Assembly: GCA_024399065.1 (NCBI GenBank) | Contig: JAKSIB010000006.1 | Location: 62,001-126,000 of the forward strand | Source of the DNA: Fibrobacter sp. | Lineage (GTDB): Bacteria; Fibrobacterota; Fibrobacteria; Fibrobacterales; Fibrobacteraceae | Direction of reading: 5' to 3' | DNA length: 64,000 nt | Shown: positions 14,572 to 63,254 of the stretch, in pieces | Layout of the letters: the number at the start of each line of letters is the position of its first letter | How positions within the stretch are numbered: position 1 is the first letter of the stretch | Notes under the pieces: generated by a model | Told to the model about the DNA's origin: nothing | Databases searched by the model: none | What the model saw: the letters and a program-made list of their open reading frames with translations, nothing else | Position numbers and translations under genes: made by a program

Positions 14572-15858
14572 TTATTTGTCTACGTTTTCTTCTAGCCAAT
14601 CATAGCGCTTTTTAATCCATGTCTTCAATGAATTTGCTGCGTCCTCGTATGTTTCGTAGGCTTCGACAAAGGGCCAGTAGTCGTCTGTTCCAAGAACGGG
14701 CCAGCGTTTGAATTCGTTTTTTGCAGCCTTGCCTAGCTTGGACACCATGGTGTCGATGGAGTCGGGTAACGCGGCGAAATGTTTCTTATTTGTTTCCCAA
14801 TATTCCTGAACAGCCTTCTTGAAATTACTGTTCTTGAAAGGGAAACGGTACCAACCGTAATTTCGGACGTACCATCCTTCATGGGTTTTCATTTCTGAAC
14901 TTGTTAATCCATACCCTAAGTCAAAATCCCATACGGGACCCATCTTGATGACGTCCCCTTTTTCCCATGTAAAGTAGATACTTCTGCGGAATGCTCCGTC
15001 CAGGTTCTTTGTAAATTCCTGGATTGTGTAGTAACGGATGAAGTCTTCTACGTCAATCCACTTGGCGAGAGAGTCCATGTTATAGACCCCCTTACCCTTC
15101 AGGAAATTTTCAAAGTCGTTGAAATGGTCCTGCACTAGCTTAATGGACTGGTCGCTGGGATTTTTTGGTGAATTTATCTGAAATATGTAGCCAAGCTGGG
15201 TGATGAATATGCGCGGATTCGTACTGATATAGCCGTTGATATTGTCCGGAGCATCCTCGTCCATTTCCACGCCCGTCGTGGTTGCCGATGTTTTTTCAAC
15301 TAAAAAGCTGGAGTCATTTTCCGGAATGTTGATTCTGTTCTTGGAAACCTTCATGTGCTCTACCAACTGGTAGACTCCTATATATTCCCGATTCAGGAAA
15401 ACTTCCACAAAACAACTTCGTGGTGAGTATTCGTCGCCAAGGGCGTCTGCCAACTGATAGGTGATGTAGTTTCGAAGAAAGCTTTTGTCCCTTTGATTGG
15501 AAATCAAATCCCAGTCGCGGTTCTTGGGCATGCCGAGAATCTTTTCCTTGTTCTCGAATTCAAGTTTGATTCCATGCTTGGCGAAGACAAAGGATGAATT
15601 TCCGCGGCCTTTTACGGTAAGGTCCATGATTTCGGTTTCGGGGGATTTTTCGCCGTAAATCTGGAGTCTGGCAGGAATCTTTGTTTCGCGGTCGTAAATC
15701 TGCCTGAAGTTCTCGGTTTCGATTACGATTCGGGGGAGGCCGCTGTAGGGGTATTCGGAATCGTCTAGCGGCAGGTAGTCCATGCTTTCGCTATTTTCGT
15801 TCCACACGCAGGAACAAAGCAAATTGCAAAGGATGATAATCAAAAGGAAACGCCGCAT
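14572..15858 (-). CDS. CotH kinase-like lipoprotein
   Basis: The N-terminus [17 protein letters not shown] has a lipobox (LCSC, Cys17), so it is exported and lipidated. The body carries CotH features: [48 protein letters not shown], and [13 protein letters not shown] with the metal-binding Asp residues. Spore-coat CotH is a secretory-pathway protein kinase, and relatives occur in many non-spore-formers next to VTC/DUF4956 genes, which in this window lie 40 kb away. It is first in a two-gene unit with tagD. Target proteins are unknown. The gene is divergent from the outer-membrane protein gene at 15943. Confidence 0.87.
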
Positions 15859-53190: not shown

Positions 53191-53874
53191 ATGCTCGATC
53201 TTTTAGCGGTACAATCTGGTACTGCCAATGCATCTCTCATCACCTTGGCCTACACTCTCATCTTGGCCTTCATCCTTTCCTCCACTATCGCCTGGACTTA
53301 CGAAAAGACGTTCCTTGGTCTTTCTTACTCCAGAAATTTTGTCCAGGGCATCGTTCTTAGTTCTGTGGTGGCCGCAATGGTTATGGCTGCTATCGGCGAT
53401 AACGTCGGCCGCGGTCTCGGTATGATGGGCGCTCTTTCTGTGGTCCGTTTCCGTACAAGCTTTAAGGATCCTCGCGACATCATGTTTATCTTCGCCTCTC
53501 TCGGCGCAGGTATCGGTTGTGGCGTTTACGCTTGGGGGCCGGCTCTCGGTGGTACCGTTGCATTCTGCATCGTCGCCTTCCTCATTTCCCGTACCGGTCT
53601 CGGTACCAAGCACTTCTTCGACGGCATGCTCCGTTTCGCTTTGCCTAACGAATCCGCTCCCCGTCAGCAGATTGAAGATGTTCTTCGAAAAAGTCTAAAG
53701 ACCTACATCCTAATCACCATGCGTGAGGTTGATGGCGGTGCTCGCGTGGATTGCGCTTACCAGGTTCGCCTCCGTGCCACCAAGCCCGCTGCAGAAATCC
53801 TGAAAGAACTTTCTGAAATTGAAGGCATCTCCGATGTTCAGTTCATGATGCAAGACGCAACCACCGAGATGTAA
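53191..53874 (+). CDS. DUF4956 membrane protein
   Basis: 227 residues with three to four membrane helices in the first 140 (LITLAYTLILAFILSSTIAW, VLSSVVAAMVMAAIG, GTVAFCIVAFLI) and the family signature MMGALSVVRFRTSFKDPRD between them. A ~90-residue soluble domain ends it. DUF4956 proteins are usually encoded with VTC-type polyphosphate polymerases and CotH; here the VTC gene lies 2.5 kb downstream in the same run. CGGAGA precedes ATG 53191. It begins the five-gene unit; the 281 bases ahead of it (52910-53190) hold AT-rich sequence with no gene. Confidence 0.88.
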   Translation: MLDLLAVQSGTANASLITLAYTLILAFILSSTIAWTYEKTFLGLSYSRNFVQGIVLSSVVAAMVMAAIGDNVGRGLGMMGALSVVRFRTSFKDPRDIMFIFASLGAGIGCGVYAWGPALGGTVAFCIVAFLISRTGLGTKHFFDGMLRFALPNESAPRQQIEDVLRKSLKTYILITMREVDGGARVDCAYQVRLRATKPAAEILKELSEIEGISDVQFMMQDATTEM

Positions 53875-53885
53875 GGGAGTAGATG

Positions 53886-54950
53886 ATGAACAAGTTTGAA
53901 GACGCTCTCGATACTTTTTGGAATAAGCACAAGACTAATCCCGGTGTAGCTCATGCCTATAAGCACAAGTTGATCTACGCCTGGTGCCTTAGCATCCTTA
54001 TCGTTATTGTCCTTGGTATTATGTTCGCTGGCAAGGCTTCCATGTTCCAGGGAATTGCCGAAGCTACCGAAACTACTATCAGCCTGCCGAGCCCTACTGA
54101 AGTTGTCAAGGTTCACGTGATGCCTGGTCAGTCCATTCACGCTGGTGATACCATCGTTGAATTGAACCGCCCGGATTTGACTCTCCGTATTACCGAGCTT
54201 ACTCGTGAACTTGATGCTATCGAAGGTCGTAGCAGCCTGGGTACTGCAGAAATCGACCAGAAGGTTGCCGAAGTCAAGGCTGACCTTGCTTCCCGTAGCC
54301 TTGCTCTCAAGTCTGAAATCCGTAACTTGGAAACTGAATATCAGAAGAACAAGGAAATTGCAGCAAAGCTCAAGAGCCTCAAGAATTCTGACTCCAAGAG
54401 CGATGGTAACGACGCCATGGCAATGCGTATCAAGAGCTTGAAGAATGAACTTGCTGTGATCAACGCAAACGCAAATGAACAGATCAAGCTCCTCAAGAGC
54501 AGTGGTCGTTTGCAGAAGAGCGCTGGCAAGACTGAAGTTGAAAACCTCAAGAAGGAATTGGCAGAACTCCAGAAGCAACAGGAAGAGTTGGTGCAGATTG
54601 CCAAGGAAGACTGGGTTGTTGGTTCCGTCAATGCTCGCGATGGTGAAAAGCTTTCCAGCTTTGCACCGGTTGTTACCTTGACCCACAAGTCTCCGACCCT
54701 CGTCCGCGGTTACATTCATGAACGTATGTACCAGCGTATGGACGTTGGCGAAACCGTGAAGGTTCGCACCTTGGGCGGCACCGGCAAGGCAATCAAGGGC
54801 AAGGTGGTTGGTCTTTCTAGCCGTATTGTTGAATTCCCCATGCGTATGTGGAAGATGCCGGAAATGCCTATCCATGGCCGCGAAGTCATCATTCAGATCC
54901 CTGATGAAAATCCGTTCCTGTTGGGCGAAATGGTGACTATCTCCGAATAA
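53886..54950 (+). CDS. HlyD-like periplasmic adaptor
   Basis: A membrane helix (about residues 28-47, IYAWCLSILIVIVLGIMFAG) is followed by a lipoyl-like half (VVKVHVMPGQSIHAGDTIVEL), a long coiled coil (about 95-240, rich in K, E and L) and the second lipoyl/beta-barrel part (SFAPVVTLTHKSPTLVRGYI). This is the layout of membrane-fusion proteins that link an inner-membrane pump to TolC. The neighbour downstream is a TolC-like protein and upstream is DUF4956; no ABC or RND pump is present. ATG 53886 or 53883 can start it (ATGATG). Confidence 0.85.
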   Translation: MNKFEDALDTFWNKHKTNPGVAHAYKHKLIYAWCLSILIVIVLGIMFAGKASMFQGIAEATETTISLPSPTEVVKVHVMPGQSIHAGDTIVELNRPDLTLRITELTRELDAIEGRSSLGTAEIDQKVAEVKADLASRSLALKSEIRNLETEYQKNKEIAAKLKSLKNSDSKSDGNDAMAMRIKSLKNELAVINANANEQIKLLKSSGRLQKSAGKTEVENLKKELAELQKQQEELVQIAKEDWVVGSVNARDGEKLSSFAPVVTLTHKSPTLVRGYIHERMYQRMDVGETVKVRTLGGTGKAIKGKVVGLSSRIVEFPMRMWKMPEMPIHGREVIIQIPDENPFLLGEMVTISE

Positions 54951-55005
54951 TTTTCGGACATGTTTTCGAGAAGTAAATTCGAATAAAAAGTTTTAGGAAG
55001 TGTTT

Positions 55006-56382
55006 ATGAAAAAGTTTGGATTGGTAACCTTAGCATTGTCCGCCGCTGCATTTGCTGGCCCCCTTACTTGGGAACAGTTGATTCAGTCCGTGGATAACGA
55101 CCCTCGTTACCAGGCTGCACAGAAGCGTGCAGAGATGACCTCCACCGGACAGAATACCAAACTTTGGGATAAGTTGGAACTGCGCTACAAGTTGGATGGT
55201 TTCAGCTTTGCCAGCCACGACTTCGAACTTCGTATTACGCCGAAGGGCTTTGGCGAAGGTGCTGCTGACAAGGCTCACTGGAATGCTCAGGTTGCTTACC
55301 AGAAGGCTCACCTTGTTGCAGACCGCGCAGAACTTCTGTACGACCGTTATGATCGTGCAATCCATTACATCAATCGCCAGCGTATTGCCAAGTTGAACAA
55401 GGAACTTTACCAGGTCAACTCTGACCGTATCGAAGTGCTTCACATGAAGGCCGGCTCTGCAACTTTCAATCCCCAGGACTTGATGAGTTCTTTGGAAAAG
55501 GAAGCATCCCTCCGCGCTGAAATCATGACCGACAGTACTTCCTTGTTGAATGCAGAAGCTAAGCTCCGTTTGTGGGTGCCTGACTTTGATGGTGTTGAAT
55601 TGGATACCACCTGGATTCCTTCCATGGACGAGGTTGCTGCGCAATTGGAAGGTGGTCTCGAAATTAACGAAACCTTCCCAGCTATTGCAATGGCTGCTGG
55701 TAAGATGAGGTCTGAAAAGTCTAAGATCCAGCAGGACGCTTCCAAGAGCCGCGACTATATTTCCCATATCGGCATTGGCTATTCCTTGAAGATTGAATCC
55801 TTGATGGAAAAGTACAAGGAATTGGAAGCTTATGATGTGTATGGAACAGGTTCTTACACTGATTTCAGAGATGAATTTGAAAAGGCAACAGGTTGTACTG
55901 GTGCCTCATGTACTGGAACTGCAAAATTGCTTGTCCCGGATTGGGATAATCGCAAGACTTCCGACAAGTTTTTTGCAAACCTTGCTTTCCGTCTCCCGTT
56001 CTTTGACAGCAATAAAGACGCTGACTTGAAGACCCAGGTTGCGGAACTTGACGCCGAAGGCGACTACATGAAGGACTTCCGAGATGTCTCTCAGAAGGTT
56101 ACAAAGCTTGTTGATGAAATCAACGCCTTGATCGCCCAGTGGAAGGTTCAGAAGGAATTTGTGGAAAAGGTGAATGCCGGCTCTATCTTTGAACAGTTCG
56201 CGAAGAACGCTGGTTCCGATCCTCTGCTTTTGCTCCGAGCTCGTGAAAGCGCCCTTGAAAGTGACTTGAGAGCCATCAAGCTTGAAAACGATATTTTTAC
56301 CCGCTACCTTGCTCTGCTTGAATACGCTGGTGTTCTCGGTGCCGAAGGTGTGCAGAATCATCTGCAGAAGGGTCTGAAGTAA
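55006..56382 (+). CDS. TolC-like outer-membrane efflux protein
   Basis: ATG 55006 with AGGAAG upstream. A signal peptide (MKKFGLVTLALSAAAFA) precedes a mostly helical 440-residue body with TolC-type features: LTWEQLIQSVDNDPRYQAAQ at the start and two long helical halves (about 95-175 and 340-430). Strand-rich pieces at about 45-65 and 305-320 (FELRITPKGFG, FFANLAFRLPFF) fit the barrel. It is shorter and more diverged than classic TolC. It pairs with the HlyD-like adaptor 55 bases upstream, so the two should form a channel across the periplasm and outer membrane. Confidence 0.75.
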   Translation: MKKFGLVTLALSAAAFAGPLTWEQLIQSVDNDPRYQAAQKRAEMTSTGQNTKLWDKLELRYKLDGFSFASHDFELRITPKGFGEGAADKAHWNAQVAYQKAHLVADRAELLYDRYDRAIHYINRQRIAKLNKELYQVNSDRIEVLHMKAGSATFNPQDLMSSLEKEASLRAEIMTDSTSLLNAEAKLRLWVPDFDGVELDTTWIPSMDEVAAQLEGGLEINETFPAIAMAAGKMRSEKSKIQQDASKSRDYISHIGIGYSLKIESLMEKYKELEAYDVYGTGSYTDFRDEFEKATGCTGASCTGTAKLLVPDWDNRKTSDKFFANLAFRLPFFDSNKDADLKTQVAELDAEGDYMKDFRDVSQKVTKLVDEINALIAQWKVQKEFVEKVNAGSIFEQFAKNAGSDPLLLLRARESALESDLRAIKLENDIFTRYLALLEYAGVLGAEGVQNHLQKGLK

Positions 56383-56383
56383 T

Positions 56384-57214
56384 ATGGCCGAAGCCCGTGG
56401 ATTTAGTCTTCTCGAACGTTTCGAGCTGAAGTACCACATTCCTGTGGAATGGGCCGACAAGATCGGCGCCTTCATCGCTCCTTATTGCGAAGAAGACTAT
56501 TATTCCAAGATTACTCCGGGTGGATTTTACTGGATTACGAACCTTTATCTGGATACCCCGTCCTGGACATTCCTTGGCTGGAAAAAGCGCCAGCTGCTGG
56601 ACCGTTTCAATATGCGTATCCGCACCTATGGTGAACACCCCGCTCAGGATGGAACTTTCCATTTTGAAGTGAAGCGCAAGATCAAGAATATTTGCTACAA
56701 GAGCCGAGCCACCATCAAGGGTGTCAATCCTGGTGAAGTCTGGGATATGAAGCCGGAAGAATGGCCTTGCAAGGGTGAAAAGGACCGCAAGTACCTTAAG
56801 GATTTCTTGTACAAAACTGAATTGCATGGTGCCCATCCTCGTCTTTTGACTCAGTACAAACGTCGTGCGTGGTTTGGTCTCCGCGAAGAATATTCCCGCG
56901 TGACCATCGATACCGGCATGCGTTTCCGTGAAGAAAATGGTTTTGATTACACAGTCGATCCCCACTACATGCATTCCACCGGCATTCCCCGATTCTTCTT
57001 GCCGGGTTGCGATGCTGTTTTGGAACTGAAGTGTCCCTGTTCCCAGGTGCCTTACTGGATGATCGACCTGATCCGATTCCTGAACCTAAAACAGGGTGGT
57101 TTTTCCAAATTTGGCAATGCCGCCGCCGAATGGCAGCGTGTTTATGAAAATCCCCGCCGTTTCAAGACCCCTTACTGGACAAAACTTGGAACGACGCTGG
57201 AAGAAAATTTGTAA
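56384..57214 (+). CDS. VTC-domain (polyphosphate polymerase-like) protein
   Basis: 276 residues. The CYTH-type tunnel residues are all visible: LERFELKYHI, ITNLYLDTP, RIRTYG, FEVKRK, TQYKRRAWFG, RVTIDTGMRF and AVLELKCP. In yeast Vtc4 this fold makes polyphosphate from ATP; bacterial members usually sit next to DUF4956. One base separates it from the TolC-like stop, so coupling is tight. It is soluble and would act in the cytoplasm at the DUF4956 membrane protein. Confidence 0.9.
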   Translation: MAEARGFSLLERFELKYHIPVEWADKIGAFIAPYCEEDYYSKITPGGFYWITNLYLDTPSWTFLGWKKRQLLDRFNMRIRTYGEHPAQDGTFHFEVKRKIKNICYKSRATIKGVNPGEVWDMKPEEWPCKGEKDRKYLKDFLYKTELHGAHPRLLTQYKRRAWFGLREEYSRVTIDTGMRFREENGFDYTVDPHYMHSTGIPRFFLPGCDAVLELKCPCSQVPYWMIDLIRFLNLKQGGFSKFGNAAAEWQRVYENPRRFKTPYWTKLGTTLEENL

Positions 57215-57247
57215 TATAGAGAAAATACTCTAAAAAGGATGTCTCTT

Positions 57248-58885
57248 ATGGATATCAAAAAAGTTTTGACAGTTGGTGCAAGTGTAGCCCTCGTTTCCAT
57301 GATGGCTGCCTGCTCTGAAAAGGAATCCCCTAATCCTGCTGGACCGAATGATCCTACAATGTCTTCCGGCATTGCTGTTGGTGGCAATTCCTCCAGCTCT
57401 AGGGGCAACAGCGTTCTCGTGTCCAGTTCTTCCATGAAGAATACTGACGAACCGCAGATGGCTTGCTCCGAAATTATGTACAACACTGCGAAGGGTGATA
57501 CTCTGGAATGGGTTGAAATCTATATCGCCGGTGGTATGGATATGGACAACATGAAGGATTTCGTCTTGCATTTGAGCGGAGATGTGGACTACGAGTTCCC
57601 TGCAGAACCTTTGACTAAGGGTGAGTATGTTGTTGTCACCAACAATTTGGCTGGCTTCAAGGCTGCTTATCCGACATTTAATGGTCGTCTCTTTGGACCG
57701 ATGACTGGTAAGATGGTTAATGAAGGTGGCGTGGTGAATGTCAAGGTTCGTGGCGAAGGTGACGTTACTTGTGCATTCAGCAGTGAACCTCCTTGGCCGA
57801 GCCTTGCTGACGGTAAGGGCCATTCCCTGGTTTATACCGGTGGCATTGCTGCTCAATCTGTCTCCTGGTGTGCTAGCGCACTCCCTGGTGGAAATCCGGG
57901 CGTGGGTGGCGACGCTTGCATTGATGTCGTAAATACGGTGCGTATTAATGAAGTCAAACCTTCTTATTCTGCTGCTGGTACTTACGAAGAATCCTGGATT
58001 GAACTTTACAATTCTGGCGATGTCCCGGTGGATGTCTCTGGTTGGACTCTGAATGTGAAACTCCGTAAGGACTCCTTGAAAATCAAGGAAGGTTCCATTG
58101 TTCCTGCTGGTGGTTATCTTGTCCTGGACGGTGGTGAATCCGGAAGCTTTGATAAGGAAGTTGTCATTTCGGAACACGGTGGCGAAATCTACCTTTACGG
58201 TTTGGCTGAAGGTCAGGAATCCAGCATTTGGTTGCCTGCAGGTAAGGGTGTTAGCGGTATTGTTGATGTTGCTGACGGTTCTGTGGCTCAGGGCCCCTTG
58301 GCAGAAGCTACTCCGGGTGCTGCAAATTCTGCCCTTAAGCTTGGTTCCGTTTACATTGACGAAATTCATTATCATCCTGGAGAAAGAGGTGTTATCTTTG
58401 AATTCATGGAAATTGTGAATGCGACGGCGTCTGATATCATGCTTTACAACTCCTCCTTGAATAAAGGCTGGAAGGTCGAGGGCGTCAATATTGAATTTAC
58501 GTCTGCTGATGTTTTGCCGGCTGGTGGCAGGGCTGTCTTGATTCCGGCTGTGTTGGAAGAAGGTTCTATCCCTAATTGGGGTGCTGACTACGTTCGTTCC
58601 ACCTACAGCATTCCCGCAACTGTTAAGATCTTCTCTTATAAGGGAAAGCTCTCCAATCGCGGTGAAACCATTGCAATAAAGGAACCTATTGTTCAAACTA
58701 AAGACGAAACCACTGGAGAAATCAAGGTTTATTATAGCTGGCATGATGCGACTCTCTATTCTGATGCTTGGGCGGGTCTTACAGAAGCTGACGGTGCAGG
58801 ATTCAGTTTGCAGCGTAAAGATGTAAAAACCATGGGTTTTGGCCCCGCTGTATGGAAGGCTGCTGCTCCGACTTTGGGTAACTAG
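57248..58885 (+). CDS. Lamin-tail-domain lipoprotein
   Basis: ATG 57248 with AAAAGGA upstream opens MDIKKVLTVGASVALVSMMAAC, a lipoprotein signal. A Ser-rich linker follows (about 25-70), then three lamin-tail-like repeats: from about 75 (CSEIMYNTAKGDTLEWVEIYI), 235 (RINEVKPSYSAAGTYEESWI) and 375 (YIDEIHYHPGERGVIFEFME). Bacterial lamin-tail domains are exported and often sit with nucleases, CotH or surface proteins; they may bind DNA or polyanions. It is the last gene of the DUF4956-VTC unit, before a strong terminator. A polyanion (polyphosphate) ligand is an attractive but untested idea. Confidence 0.83.
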   Translation: MDIKKVLTVGASVALVSMMAACSEKESPNPAGPNDPTMSSGIAVGGNSSSSRGNSVLVSSSSMKNTDEPQMACSEIMYNTAKGDTLEWVEIYIAGGMDMDNMKDFVLHLSGDVDYEFPAEPLTKGEYVVVTNNLAGFKAAYPTFNGRLFGPMTGKMVNEGGVVNVKVRGEGDVTCAFSSEPPWPSLADGKGHSLVYTGGIAAQSVSWCASALPGGNPGVGGDACIDVVNTVRINEVKPSYSAAGTYEESWIELYNSGDVPVDVSGWTLNVKLRKDSLKIKEGSIVPAGGYLVLDGGESGSFDKEVVISEHGGEIYLYGLAEGQESSIWLPAGKGVSGIVDVADGSVAQGPLAEATPGAANSALKLGSVYIDEIHYHPGERGVIFEFMEIVNATASDIMLYNSSLNKGWKVEGVNIEFTSADVLPAGGRAVLIPAVLEEGSIPNWGADYVRSTYSIPATVKIFSYKGKLSNRGETIAIKEPIVQTKDETTGEIKVYYSWHDATLYSDAWAGLTEADGAGFSLQRKDVKTMGFGPAVWKAAAPTLGN

Positions 58886-58914
58886 TTTCTCTCAAAAAAA
58901 ACAGTTGTTTTAAA

Positions 58915-58943
58915 GAAAGTCCTCTCCTTTGGGGAGGACTTTC
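58915..58943 (+). terminator. Terminator after the lamin-tail lipoprotein gene
   Basis: GAAAGTCCTCTCC pairs with GGGGAGGACTTTC (one mismatch or G-T pair) around TTT, a very stable stem of about 13 base pairs. Confidence 0.9.
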
Positions 58944-58995
58944 TCATATTTTGGTGCGTTTTTTTTAGTTTGTCCTAAAAATCGATGTTTTTATG

Positions 58996-59189: not shown

Positions 59190-61028
59190 ATGAAAAAGTA
59201 TTGTGTATCTCCGATTTCTGTTTTATTGGTGGCAACACCTTTGTTTGCTAATCCCATCACTTTGCAAGACGCTTTGGACATGGCCAAGGCCAGCAATCCC
59301 CAGATCAAGTCCGAAAGGGCCAAGGTTGAGATTGCGGAGGCTAGTCAAGATGAAGCTTTTGCCCGTTTTTTGCCTTCCTTGAGCTTGTCTGCTAGTGTTA
59401 CGAAGATTGATGACCCCATTTATATTGATTTAGGTGATATTCAAGGCGCCATGAGTGGTCTTGCCGGCGGACTTGCTTCTGCGGGTGCGGCGGGTGCCTA
59501 TTCCAAGGCTTATATCGATGCCTACAATCAGGCTAGTGCTGGCTATAAGCAAGCCTACGACGGCGCCATGGCTATGGGCCTTTCGGAAGCGCAAGCCGCG
59601 GCTTTTGCCAAGGATAAACTTGGCGGGATGACTGCCCAGGAAATCGCTCAGTCCAAGGCTGACGAATATGCCCTTAAGGCCCAGCAAAGTGGCGAAGATG
59701 CCCAGAAGAAGATTGACGATGCAAATTTCAAGATGAAGGTCCAGGATGACCTGTTCTTCAATGCACGCCTTACTGCTGTTTGGCCCCTGTTTACCGGTTT
59801 CAAACGTACCGCCGCCTATGATGCTGCCAAGGGCAATGTGACTGCGAAAAAAGCTGCATTTGAAATGGCGCAGAATACCGTTTTGATGGATGTAGCCACG
59901 AAGTATTTCACCTTGCGCCTTTCCGAAGAATTGACAGCTTTGCGTGAAACGACCAAGAAGAATCTTGAAGAACATTTGGAACGTTCCAAGAAGCTTGAAG
60001 CAGGTGGCCAGATCAGCAAGGCAGAACGCCTTCGTGCAGAAGTTGCTTTGGCCGAAGCAGAAAATGCCCTGGAAGATTCTTATCGTGACCAGTCTTTGGC
60101 TCGTATGGCTTTGGCAAGCTTGCTTCATACAGATACAAACTTGACTGCAGTGACTCCGGTGATGGCTCCGGAACAGACTCCGTCCATTGAAGAGTTCAAG
60201 ACCTTGGCTATCGAACGCCACCCGGGTTTGCAGCAGTTGCGTACCGAACGTAAGCGTAGCCAGAATGCCGTGAAGGCCGCCCAGGGTGATTACTACCCGA
60301 TGGTGGCTCTGTTCGCTTATAAGGAACTTTATACTCGTGACTTGACCCTTCTGGAACCGGAATGGGCTGTGGGCGCAAAGCTTCAGTGGGATTTGTTCAA
60401 GGGTGGAGAAACCCGTTCCAAGGTTGCAAACGCAAAAGCTTTGGACCGTTCTCTTTTGAATATGGAAGAAAGCACCTTGGATAACATCAAGCTGCTTGTG
60501 GAAAAGCGCTGGCGTGAAAAAGAACACGCCATGAGTCGTTTGACCAGTTTGAACAAGACTCGTGAGCTTGCGGAAGAAGCTCTCCGCAGCCAGACTTTGG
60601 CTTACGAAGCAGGTCTTGCTACTGGCTTGGAAGTTGTTGATGCTGAGTTGTCTTTGGCTCGTTTGCAGGTGGGCGATTTGAAGGCTCATTATGACGCCGT
60701 TATTGCATGGCTTGGCTTGCTGGAAGCTAGTGGCGAAGTTGTCAATGCAGGTGCAATGCTTACAGCAGTTCAACCGGTTGATGAAACTACAAACAAATCC
60801 GCAGTGACAGCTCCTGCAACCACTCCCGTACTTTTGCCTGCAACAGAAAATGCTGTTGCACCTATAGCAGAAACTTCCGTGGAAACGGCTCCTGCTGAAC
60901 AACCTGTGGCCAATCCCGCAGTGAATGATTCTACAGAAAATGTTCCTGCTGTTGAACCGGCATCCGTCTCTGCAGAGTCCGCTCCCGCGACAAACCTTGA
61001 ATCTACTATCCCCGCATCCGAAAATTAA
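59190..61028 (+). CDS. TolC-family outer-membrane protein with insert and Pro/Ala-rich tail
   Basis: Signal peptide (MKKYCVSPISVLLVATPLFA), then ITLQDALDMAKASNPQIKSE, the TolC start. A Gly/Ala-rich helical insert of about 100 residues (about 85-180, LAGGLASAGAAGAYSKAYID) interrupts the first repeat. The channel continues with LTAVWPLFTGFKRTAAYDAA and AVGAKLQWDLFKGGETRSK, both classic TolC barrel strands. The last ~85 residues are T/P/A/V/E-rich and disordered. It is the outer-membrane part of an exporter with the HlyD and ABC-2 genes that follow. Confidence 0.9.
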   Translation: MKKYCVSPISVLLVATPLFANPITLQDALDMAKASNPQIKSERAKVEIAEASQDEAFARFLPSLSLSASVTKIDDPIYIDLGDIQGAMSGLAGGLASAGAAGAYSKAYIDAYNQASAGYKQAYDGAMAMGLSEAQAAAFAKDKLGGMTAQEIAQSKADEYALKAQQSGEDAQKKIDDANFKMKVQDDLFFNARLTAVWPLFTGFKRTAAYDAAKGNVTAKKAAFEMAQNTVLMDVATKYFTLRLSEELTALRETTKKNLEEHLERSKKLEAGGQISKAERLRAEVALAEAENALEDSYRDQSLARMALASLLHTDTNLTAVTPVMAPEQTPSIEEFKTLAIERHPGLQQLRTERKRSQNAVKAAQGDYYPMVALFAYKELYTRDLTLLEPEWAVGAKLQWDLFKGGETRSKVANAKALDRSLLNMEESTLDNIKLLVEKRWREKEHAMSRLTSLNKTRELAEEALRSQTLAYEAGLATGLEVVDAELSLARLQVGDLKAHYDAVIAWLGLLEASGEVVNAGAMLTAVQPVDETTNKSAVTAPATTPVLLPATENAVAPIAETSVETAPAEQPVANPAVNDSTENVPAVEPASVSAESAPATNLESTIPASEN

Positions 61029-61039
61029 TAGGAGTCATT

Positions 61040-62041
61040 ATGCTTAAAGTTGTAAAAGTTATTGGCAAGATTTTAGTCATTCTTTCTTTGATAGCCTTGA
61101 TCGTTCTTGGCATTACCACATTGCAGAAGTTCGCTACCGAACCTCGAGACGCTTATTTGCAGGGCCAGATGGAAGCCCGCCGCGTTCTTGTCGCTGGTAA
61201 GGTGCCAGGTCGTGTGGAAAGTTTGTTCTTCCATGAAGGTGACATGGTGACAAAGGGCGCAATCGTAGCCGTCATCAGCAGCCCTGAAATCGAAGCAAAG
61301 AAGATGCAGGCTCAGGGTGCTCTTGGTGCTGCTCGCGCACAGGCTAACAAGGCTAAGAATGGTGCTCGCTCCGAAGACGTTACCGCATTGAAGGCTATGG
61401 CCGACCGTGCCCAGGAAGCCGCAAACCTTGCAAAGAATACCTACGACCGTGTACAGAAACTTTATAACGAAGGCGTGCTCCCGTTGCAGAAGCGCGACGA
61501 AGCAGAAACTCAGATGAGAGCTTCCCAGTCCGCTGCAGACGCTGCCCGCGCTCAGTACGATCAGTCTCTCGCAGGTGCTCGTTCCGAAGACAAGGCTGCT
61601 GCCGCAGCTCTCGTGATGCAGGCCCGCGGTGCTAATGCCGAAGTGGATGCTTACCTCGAAGAAACCAAGATTCGTGCTCCTATTGCAGGCGAAGTCTCCG
61701 TCAAGCTTGTTGAAGAAGGCGAAGTGGTTGGCTCCGGCATGCCCGTTGTCGCAATTACCGACCTTGATGATTCCTGGGCAGTCTTCCACCTCCGTGAAGA
61801 TTTGCTGAAGAATGTTTCCAAGGGCAAGGCCTTCAACATGTTCATTCCGGCCTTGGACAAGCATGTGGATATGGAAGTGACCTACATTGCTTCCGTGGGT
61901 GATTATGCAACCTGGCGTAGCTCCAAGGAAAGTGGCGGTTTCGATCTCAAGTCTTTTGAAGTTCGCCTCCGTCCGAAGGAAAAAGTTGAAAACCTCCGCC
62001 CTGGTATGAGCGTTCTCTTCCCGGTTGATCAGATTAAGTAA
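61040..62041 (+). CDS. HlyD-family periplasmic adaptor
   Basis: 333 residues: one N-terminal membrane helix (ILVILSLIALIVLGITTL), lipoyl half VPGRVESLFFHEGDMVTKGAIVAVI, a coiled coil of about 110 residues, then KIRAPIAGEVSVKLVEEGEVVGSGMPVVAI and a beta-barrel part. This is the YbhG/EmrA-type adaptor. It follows the TolC gene by 11 bases with AGGAG before ATG 61040. It links the ABC-2 permeases to TolC. Substrates of such pumps include drugs, lipids and siderophore-like molecules. Confidence 0.92.
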   Translation: MLKVVKVIGKILVILSLIALIVLGITTLQKFATEPRDAYLQGQMEARRVLVAGKVPGRVESLFFHEGDMVTKGAIVAVISSPEIEAKKMQAQGALGAARAQANKAKNGARSEDVTALKAMADRAQEAANLAKNTYDRVQKLYNEGVLPLQKRDEAETQMRASQSAADAARAQYDQSLAGARSEDKAAAAALVMQARGANAEVDAYLEETKIRAPIAGEVSVKLVEEGEVVGSGMPVVAITDLDDSWAVFHLREDLLKNVSKGKAFNMFIPALDKHVDMEVTYIASVGDYATWRSSKESGGFDLKSFEVRLRPKEKVENLRPGMSVLFPVDQIK

Positions 62042-62066
62042 TCCTTAAAAGTATTTTGGTGAGCTT

Positions 62067-63254
62067 GTGCTAAAGAATTTTCTTAAAACTGTTCGCCTGC
62101 TTTATCTCAACCACAATCTCGTATTGTGGCTGGTGTTGCTTGTTCTGCCCGTTGGTGTTTCTGTATTCATGCTGGATGTTTTCTCTGCTGAAATTGTTCA
62201 GCATGTTCCTGTAGGAATTGTTAAGCAGGATCGCTCCCAACTGGCTGATGAATTCGAACAAGGTTTGAGGGCCAGCCCCGTTATTGACGTGGCTATGGTT
62301 TGCGCAGACCTTGGCGAATGTGAACATGCAATCATTCGTGGTGATTTGCAGGCTTTTATTGTGTTGCCTTATGATATGGAGCAAAAGGCTCTCCGTTTGG
62401 AAACGCCTGTTGTTCCCATTTATTCTAGCGGCCAGAACTATCTGACAAATACTTTCGCTACAAAGGAAATCCGTTCGGTCTTTTCGACCATTGGAGCTAA
62501 TTTGTTCACAAAGTCCATGGATGATCCTGTAAGTGTACAGATTAAATCTGTGGGTAATGCAGAAAGCAATTACCAGGGTTTCCTAGGGATGGGTCTCGTA
62601 ACGTCCGTATTCCATTTAGCTGCAATTCTTGGTGCTGCATATCTCATGAGCTACCCGCTTCGTGAACGTCGCCTGAGAAAGTTTCTGGCTGCAGCGAAGG
62701 GATCCCGCACGGTACTTTGCCTCGCAACCATTCTTCCCATGATTGTGATTCTGTGGCTTTCCATGGTGGGAACCTACGCCTACACTCATCGATTCCTTGC
62801 CCCTATGACTCTTGATGAATTCATTGTGGTGTCTGCTTCCCAGCTCATTATGATTATTGCTTGTGTTGGCGCAGGAACGGCTTTTGTTGGTGTTACCGGA
62901 AGTATGCGTATTTCGACTAGCGTGTCTGGCGTTATCGCCGGCCCTGCCTTCGCTTTTGCCGGTCAGACCTTCCCGTTGATGGCCATGCCTTTGGCTGTCC
63001 GTTGTTTTGCATTCATCCTTCCGTTGACACATCTTCTCAAGGTTCAGGCATCTATGCTTCTTGGCCCCATTGGCAAGGCCCACGCCTGGGAATCCATCGT
63101 GATTCTTTTGGGAATGGCTTTGTTCTGGCAGTTGCTGGGAAACTTCTCCATGTTTGCCCGCTGGAAGTATGCCGTCAAGAGAGAAAAACGCTTGTCTCGC
63201 GAGGCTGCCGCAGAAAAAAGCAAATCCGCAGTAGAGGAGGTCGAAAATGTTTGA
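62067..63254 (+). CDS. ABC-2 type transporter permease
   Basis: A GTG start. One membrane helix at about 17-38, a periplasmic domain (about 40-180, VPVGIVKQDRSQLADEFEQG), then five to six helices (FLGMGLVTSVFHLAAILGAA, LATILPMIVILWLSMVG and on). This is the YhhJ/YbhR-like ABC-2 layout. It pairs with a second permease that starts 8 bases inside its 3' end. No ATP-binding protein is encoded in the visible part of the operon. Confidence 0.88.
   Translation: MLKNFLKTVRLLYLNHNLVLWLVLLVLPVGVSVFMLDVFSAEIVQHVPVGIVKQDRSQLADEFEQGLRASPVIDVAMVCADLGECEHAIIRGDLQAFIVLPYDMEQKALRLETPVVPIYSSGQNYLTNTFATKEIRSVFSTIGANLFTKSMDDPVSVQIKSVGNAESNYQGFLGMGLVTSVFHLAAILGAAYLMSYPLRERRLRKFLAAAKGSRTVLCLATILPMIVILWLSMVGTYAYTHRFLAPMTLDEFIVVSASQLIMIIACVGAGTAFVGVTGSMRISTSVSGVIAGPAFAFAGQTFPLMAMPLAVRCFAFILPLTHLLKVQASMLLGPIGKAHAWESIVILLGMALFWQLLGNFSMFARWKYAVKREKRLSREAAAEKSKSAVEEVENV

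Follow-up and report, generated by a model that had tools for sequence, protein, structure and literature searches.

A conserved gene cassette of Fibrobacter joins a VTC-family polymerase to DUF4956, a HlyD-type adaptor, and a TolC-fold channel and suggests a route for polyphosphate to the cell surface

Results

The five-gene cassette

The window analyzed is a 64,000-nucleotide stretch of Fibrobacter sp. contig JAKSIB010000006.1 (assembly GCA_024399065.1, positions 62,001 to 126,000 of the forward strand), and coordinates without a locus label are window positions. Five open reading frames (ORFs), all on the plus strand at 53191-58885, form one tight run with successive intergenic gaps of 8, 49, 1, and 24 bp. 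The first gene (53191..53874) encodes a 227-residue membrane protein of the DUF4956 family (PF16316, E = 2e-12) and is followed by genes for a 355-residue HlyD/EmrA-like periplasmic adaptor (53883..54950; PF13437, E = 4e-9), a 460-residue outer-membrane channel of predicted TolC fold (55000..56382), a 276-residue VTC-domain polyphosphate-polymerase-like enzyme (56384..57214; PF09359, E = 1e-29), and a 548-residue lipoprotein (57239..58885). The lipoprotein has a lipobox-like amino terminus with the cysteine at position 25 and three stretches that match the lamin-tail domain (LTD; PF00932, E = 1e-25). The batB gene lies upstream, separated from the run by 281 bp, and a hairpin resembling an intrinsic terminator (58914..58944, plus strand; 14 pairs, 7 of them G-C, loop of 3) closes it. 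An earlier note on this DNA had described the same combination of VTC and DUF4956 with HlyD, TolC-like, and LTD lipoprotein genes, and the ORFs, Pfam matches, and structure of the TolC-like protein bear it out.

Conservation of the four-gene core

VTC is present in 136 of 168 Fibrobacterota genomes. Across the Fibrobacterota loci fetched, most of Fibrobacteraceae and also families from other classes share the order DUF4956-HlyD-TolC-VTC-LTD, so that the five-gene order singled out by the earlier note recurs throughout the phylum; batA/batB are not kept alongside it. A DUF4956 alignment scanned against 84,980 species genomes gave 303 relatives, and the best 80 of these were fetched. Thirty loci outside Fibrobacterota within this set have DUF4956, HlyD, TolC, and VTC genes contiguous on one strand, and they come from Desulfobacterota, Campylobacterota (Campylobacterales), Gammaproteobacteria (Crenothrix, Methylococcales), Bdellovibrionota (Bdellovibrio-like), Nitrospirota (Nitrospirales), Calditrichota, and Delongbacteria. 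The whole four-gene core is found on a single strand at 111 of the loci fetched, some of which share a genome, with median intergenic gaps of 12, -1, and -1 bp. The core is thus conserved in at least eight phyla, which is not the picture of a HlyD/TolC insertion confined to this strain or served by an ABC partner elsewhere, the cases that the earlier note named as contrary to its proposal. Six Desulfobacterota loci have the rotated order HlyD-TolC-VTC-DUF4956 with the set still complete, showing that the gene set is retained while the order varies. The cassette is also found in the complete chromosomes of Desulfonema magnum and Desulfoluna limicola and in the named isolate Desulfamplus magnetovallimortis, which counts against a binning artefact. 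Recurrence of the gene order far exceeds chance. The LTD lipoprotein is encoded in nearly all Fibrobacterota cassettes and in fewer elsewhere, making it a frequent rather than a universal member.

No ABC, MFS, or RND transporter lies within the conserved core at loci where the core is complete. The earlier note's statement that no ABC or RND pump is present holds for the cassette itself, but directly after the terminator, at 59190-63254 on the plus strand, is a second, ordinary TolC-HlyD-ABC2 exporter. This exporter was considered as the missing pump and rejected because its adjacency to the cassette is not conserved: among the Fibrobacterota loci fetched, it stands beside the cassette only in the genus and some close relatives. 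Its position immediately downstream would also suit a reading in which the HlyD and TolC-like proteins of the cassette form an efflux pump of their own with the ABC2 permeases, their linkage to VTC being incidental. This is already disfavored and we consider it highly improbable, because the downstream exporter begins past the terminator with an adaptor and channel of its own and does not adjoin the cassette outside close relatives, whereas the HlyD and TolC genes stay with VTC in all the phyla above.

No earlier description of the cassette, or of VTC combined with polyphosphate and HlyD, was found in the open literature (subscription papers and preprints lay outside the search), and nothing relevant was found in the literature on extracellular polyphosphate export or on Fibrobacter polyphosphate.

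The VTC enzyme

The VTC protein matches PF09359 with 104 bits against a cut-off of 23, and a profile of VTC proteins matches the yeast Vtc4 structure 3g3q (E = 1e-6). Residues R78, R80, and E214 align with R264, R266, and E426 of Vtc4 (chain 5iiq is numbered 3 higher), the triple that was mutated to impair Vtc4 (PMC9911596), and are invariant in 46 of 46 sequences. The same is true of K16, E95, K97, K106, R108, Y158, R160, R172, D176, K216, S241, and K242. The active site therefore appears intact apart from the position of Vtc4 K455, and domain and active site together assign the protein to the VTC polyphosphate polymerase family. It consists of the VTC domain alone and has no SPX domain. The genome has a single VTC and no match to PPK1 or PPK2, which leaves VTC as its only recognized candidate for a polyphosphate polymerase. 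PPK1 is found in 30 of 126 genomes of the class Fibrobacteria, only three of them from the genus Fibrobacter. The VTC gene of D. magnetovallimortis (L099:13290-14110) reads as two adjacent ORFs and is either split or frameshifted.

The DUF4956 membrane protein

The AlphaFold2 model of DUF4956 has a mean predicted local distance difference test (pLDDT) score of 74 and consists of five helices of membrane-crossing length (residues 16-135) and a carboxy-terminal ACT-like domain (residues 140-226). Positions K39, R86, R88, K92, and R95 are basic (Lys or Arg) in 54 of 54 relatives, and R48 is basic in nearly all. The model would place these conserved residues at or near the cytoplasmic side of the membrane. 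The yeast VTC complex has a positively charged belt between the exit of the polymerase and the membrane channel (PMC9911596), and by analogy a common principle of a basic entrance is plausible. A search of PDB sequences with DUF4956 returned no significant relative, and NCBIfam gives a weak match to MgtC/SapB.

The ACT-like fold is common in sensors, and together with the MgtC/SapB match it points to a signalling or regulatory module in which VTC and DUF4956 sense the nucleotide or phosphate state and control an adaptor and channel that export some peptide, protein, or small molecule other than a VTC product. Deletions of DUF4956 and CotH in Streptococcus intermedius change the amount of Pel (PMC12345266), as such a module might. 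The conserved set has no other energized transporter for it to control, and the polymerase site is kept in all relatives, beyond the need of a sensor; we regard this explanation as unlikely.

The adaptor and the TolC-fold channel

The adaptor scores over the PF13437 cut-off and its nearest solved structures are those of EmrA (profile match, E = 6e-7), which places it in the HlyD/EmrA family on sequence grounds. The product of 55000-56382 is a weaker call by sequence: its PF02321 match (E = 0.008) is under the curated cut-off, and PDB sequences searched with a profile yielded no significant relative. Structure comparison settles the assignment. An AlphaFold2 model built from 52 sequences (pLDDT 87.4) matches TOprJ1, TolC, OprM, and VceC across nearly the full length, with a Foldseek E = 6e-12 to TOprJ1, and superimposes on Klebsiella TolC with a VIA Z of 24.2 and a root-mean-square deviation of 5.2 over 384 residues. 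The modeled protein has a TolC fold and belongs to the TolC/outer-membrane factor family.

Most cassettes outside Fibrobacteraceae encode a phytase-like or SdiA-regulated-like propeller, either fused to the carboxy terminus of the HlyD adaptor (L072, L099, L103, L111, L133, and others) or as the product of a neighboring gene (L081:5712-6668, L124:3248-4066). The propeller was not found in Fibrobacteraceae, the family of the window, and the fused form has no significant relative in a PDB sequence search. A gammaproteobacterial cassette has a gene for a PHO4-family phosphate transporter (L170:4456-6021) between the TolC-like and VTC genes. These phosphate-linked neighbors give weak support to export of a phosphate polymer.

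The many adaptors fused to a propeller can also be taken to mean that the conduit carries a different phosphorylated product. VTC would then be another triphosphate-tunnel enzyme making a short-chain or nucleotide product that is exported for CotH or the envelope. Enzymes of the tunnel fold are chemically diverse, and the K455 position is variable. All the other Vtc4 catalytic positions that were checked are invariant, and this reading seems to us quite unlikely.

CotH kinase-like proteins and the cassette

The strongest functional clue, absent from the earlier note, is a CotH kinase-like partner (PF08757). CotH is described as a kinase of Ser-rich repeats (PMC7821199). Several Fibrobacterota from another family have a CotH gene directly 5' of DUF4956. 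Many Desulfobacterota, as well as Calditrichota and Delongbacteria, have one within or next to the cassette, and in one Arcobacteraceae locus it is convergent. Outside Fibrobacterota, 21 of 31 cassette genomes encode CotH. Co-occurrence of CotH and VTC was tested with genomes counted as independent, ignoring shared ancestry. An even sample of Desulfobacterota (n = 326) has VTC in 12 genomes and CotH in 7, and all 7 CotH genomes have VTC (Fisher p = 1e-11), on the same contig and within ~6 kb in each case. The corresponding sample of Gammaproteobacteria (n = 203) has VTC in 6, CotH in 14, and both in 4 (p = 2e-4). A strict rule that CotH needs VTC is rejected, as 10 of the 14 CotH-bearing Gammaproteobacteria have no VTC. 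The class Fibrobacteria (n = 126) divides into 111 genomes with both, 9 with neither, 1 with VTC alone, and 5 with CotH alone. Among control genomes, Bacillus subtilis has CotH and no VTC, and Bacteroides ihuae has VTC and no CotH.

The genome of the window has 11 CotH genes, all unlinked to the cassette. One of them lies in the window (14572..15858, minus strand; PF08757, E = 2e-39), 38 kb away, and encodes a lipoprotein that is a candidate partner; it is followed by a cytidylyltransferase-like frame. CotH is expanded in the genus Fibrobacter (G000, G060-G138), with 2-15 copies per genome. Of the 11 CotH proteins of the window's genome, the nine with a readable amino terminus all begin with a signal-peptide- or lipobox-like sequence, as judged by eye and with a simple hydrophobicity scan. 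Single proteins that combine LTD and CotH domains are encoded at loci L111, L114, L120, L127, L143, and L037, and these fusions tie the cassette's LTD lipoprotein to CotH. An arylsulfotransferase-like protein with an LTD and a secretion-tail domain is encoded beside a Calditrichota cassette (L127:4993-7002). A Campylobacteraceae cassette with no CotH match has a gene with three Cthe_2159 carbohydrate-binding stretches directly 5' of DUF4956 (L131:6853-8985).

A second VTC-DUF4956 type and the Gram-positive modules

A second type of locus in other Fibrobacterota (L043, L045-L048, L051, L086-L088) has VTC, a short DUF4956, and a porin-like gene with no HlyD or TolC, mostly together with one to four (tandem) CotH genes. 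The porin-like gene occupies the place that HlyD and TolC have in the first type. Its outer-membrane-type product has a weak match to Porin_O_P, the phosphate-selective porin family, in 8 of 9 members and no significant relative in a search of PDB sequences. Cthe_2159 carbohydrate-binding genes adjoin second-type loci as well. A module of CotH, VTC, and DUF4956 without an outer-membrane part is found in Gram-positive pel loci (PMC7112168, PMC12345266), adjoining pel in streptococci, clostridia, and bifidobacteria (PMC7112168). The outer-membrane part thus tracks the type of envelope, which argues for export.

The Gram-positive loci raise the further explanation of an exopolysaccharide accessory module, in which surface phosphate chemistry tunes the export of a polymer or adhesion; the module there both adjoins pel (PMC7112168) and affects the amount of Pel (PMC12345266). 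The genes that could be typed around the cassettes include no glycosyltransferase or pel-type gene, although some flanking ORFs remain untyped and the genome was not searched for pel. An accessory role of this kind is, in our estimate, very unlikely for the cassette. The three-gene synteny has been stated not to be found outside pel loci (PMC12345266, 2025), yet VTC, DUF4956, and CotH occur together here at loci that showed no pel gene.

Discussion

We interpret the four-gene core as a dedicated exporter, driven by its synthase, of polyphosphate or a similar phosphate polymer, a reading to which we give about an even chance; within it, inorganic polyphosphate is the most likely polymer. VTC, with its family membership and intact site, would polymerize phosphate from ATP at the cytoplasmic face. 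DUF4956 would conduct the growing chain across the inner membrane, with the conserved basic residues near its cytoplasmic entrance, and the EmrA-like adaptor and TolC-fold channel, parts recognized by prediction and conservation, may take the chain past the periplasm and outer membrane. Polymerization would power the transport, a mechanism that has been proposed for the yeast VTC complex, and this would explain the absent ABC, MFS, or RND pump. Outside the cell, the polymer may serve a process that involves the extracytoplasmic CotH kinase-like and LTD proteins, whose linkage to VTC is seen in the genomes. The earlier note had proposed a line from the cytoplasm through the envelope to the surface, either for a polyphosphate-like polyanion or for signalling. 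Its cytoplasmic VTC, inner-membrane DUF4956, adaptor, and channel are supported by the conservation of the four genes, the TolC fold, and the VTC site; the LTD lipoprotein is a frequent rather than a fixed part.

Several points weigh against polymerase-driven export. The position of Vtc4 K455 is not conserved among the 46 VTC sequences. No homology of DUF4956 to Vtc1 was found, and a fold comparison gave no Vtc1- or channel-like match, although it covered essentially the ACT-like part; the membrane part is modeled with moderate confidence only, and the ACT-domain relatives of DUF4956 are regulators. In S. intermedius, deletions of DUF4956 and CotH are reported to alter Pel and aggregation, whereas the mutants reported with such effects do not include the deletion of VTC (SIR_1593) (PMC12345266), so that VTC, DUF4956, and CotH need not act as one line there.

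The cassette corresponds to none of the systems it resembles. Like the eukaryotic VTC complex (Vtc1/Vtc3/Vtc4), it encodes a tunnel-fold polymerase whose catalytic residues are shared and, beside it, a membrane protein, with basic residues near the proposed entrance, but it has no SPX domain and no recognized Vtc1-type subunit and adds an adaptor and an outer-membrane channel. With the Gram-positive CotH-VTC-DUF4956(-DUF4832) module of pel loci (PMC7112168; SIR_1591-1594, PMC12345266) it has in common VTC, an ACT-bearing DUF4956, and a secreted CotH. Unlike that module, it occurs in diderms and outside any pel locus seen, has HlyD and TolC added, and in Fibrobacter is unlinked to CotH. The EmrA-like adaptor and TolC-fold channel recall EmrAB-TolC and other tripartite exporters, except that a five-helix DUF4956 and a polymerase stand in place of the MFS, ABC, or RND transporter. 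By its predicted components, the cassette is neither a standard tripartite pump nor a eukaryotic VTC complex. Synthase-dependent polysaccharide export, as of cellulose by Bcs and of alginate, couples polymerization to a dedicated envelope conduit. The principle is alike, but the polymer differs and the enzymes and outer-membrane proteins are unrelated.

The linkage to CotH suggests a use for an exported chain. Tentatively, and as a proposal that we hold less probable than not by a wide measure, secreted CotH kinases could draw on exported polyphosphate as their phosphoryl donor outside the cytoplasm. VTC and DUF4956, together with whichever outer-membrane route fits the envelope (HlyD/TolC or the porin-like protein), would supply phosphate chains where ATP is scarce, and CotH lipoproteins would transfer phosphate to proteins that are secreted or at the surface, for instance Ser-rich and LTD proteins. 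The CotH linkage speaks for this idea, and so does B. subtilis, which has CotH without VTC and whose CotH works inside the ATP-supplied mother cell. The CotH of Gammaproteobacteria that lack VTC, the VTC of B. ihuae without CotH, and the deletion pattern in S. intermedius speak against it.

The cassette bears on two questions: how bacteria could place polyphosphate at the cell surface, and how secreted CotH kinases obtain phosphate where ATP is scarce. The joint presence of polymerase and TolC-type conduit genes in many phyla offers a concrete candidate, open to testing, for the first question and a lead on the second. The grouping of CotH, VTC, and DUF4956 appears to extend beyond pel loci, contrary to the published statement (PMC12345266). 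The cassette suggests a so far undescribed route for polyphosphate to the cell surface and, if this is true, would add a tripartite exporter powered by a polymerase rather than a pump.

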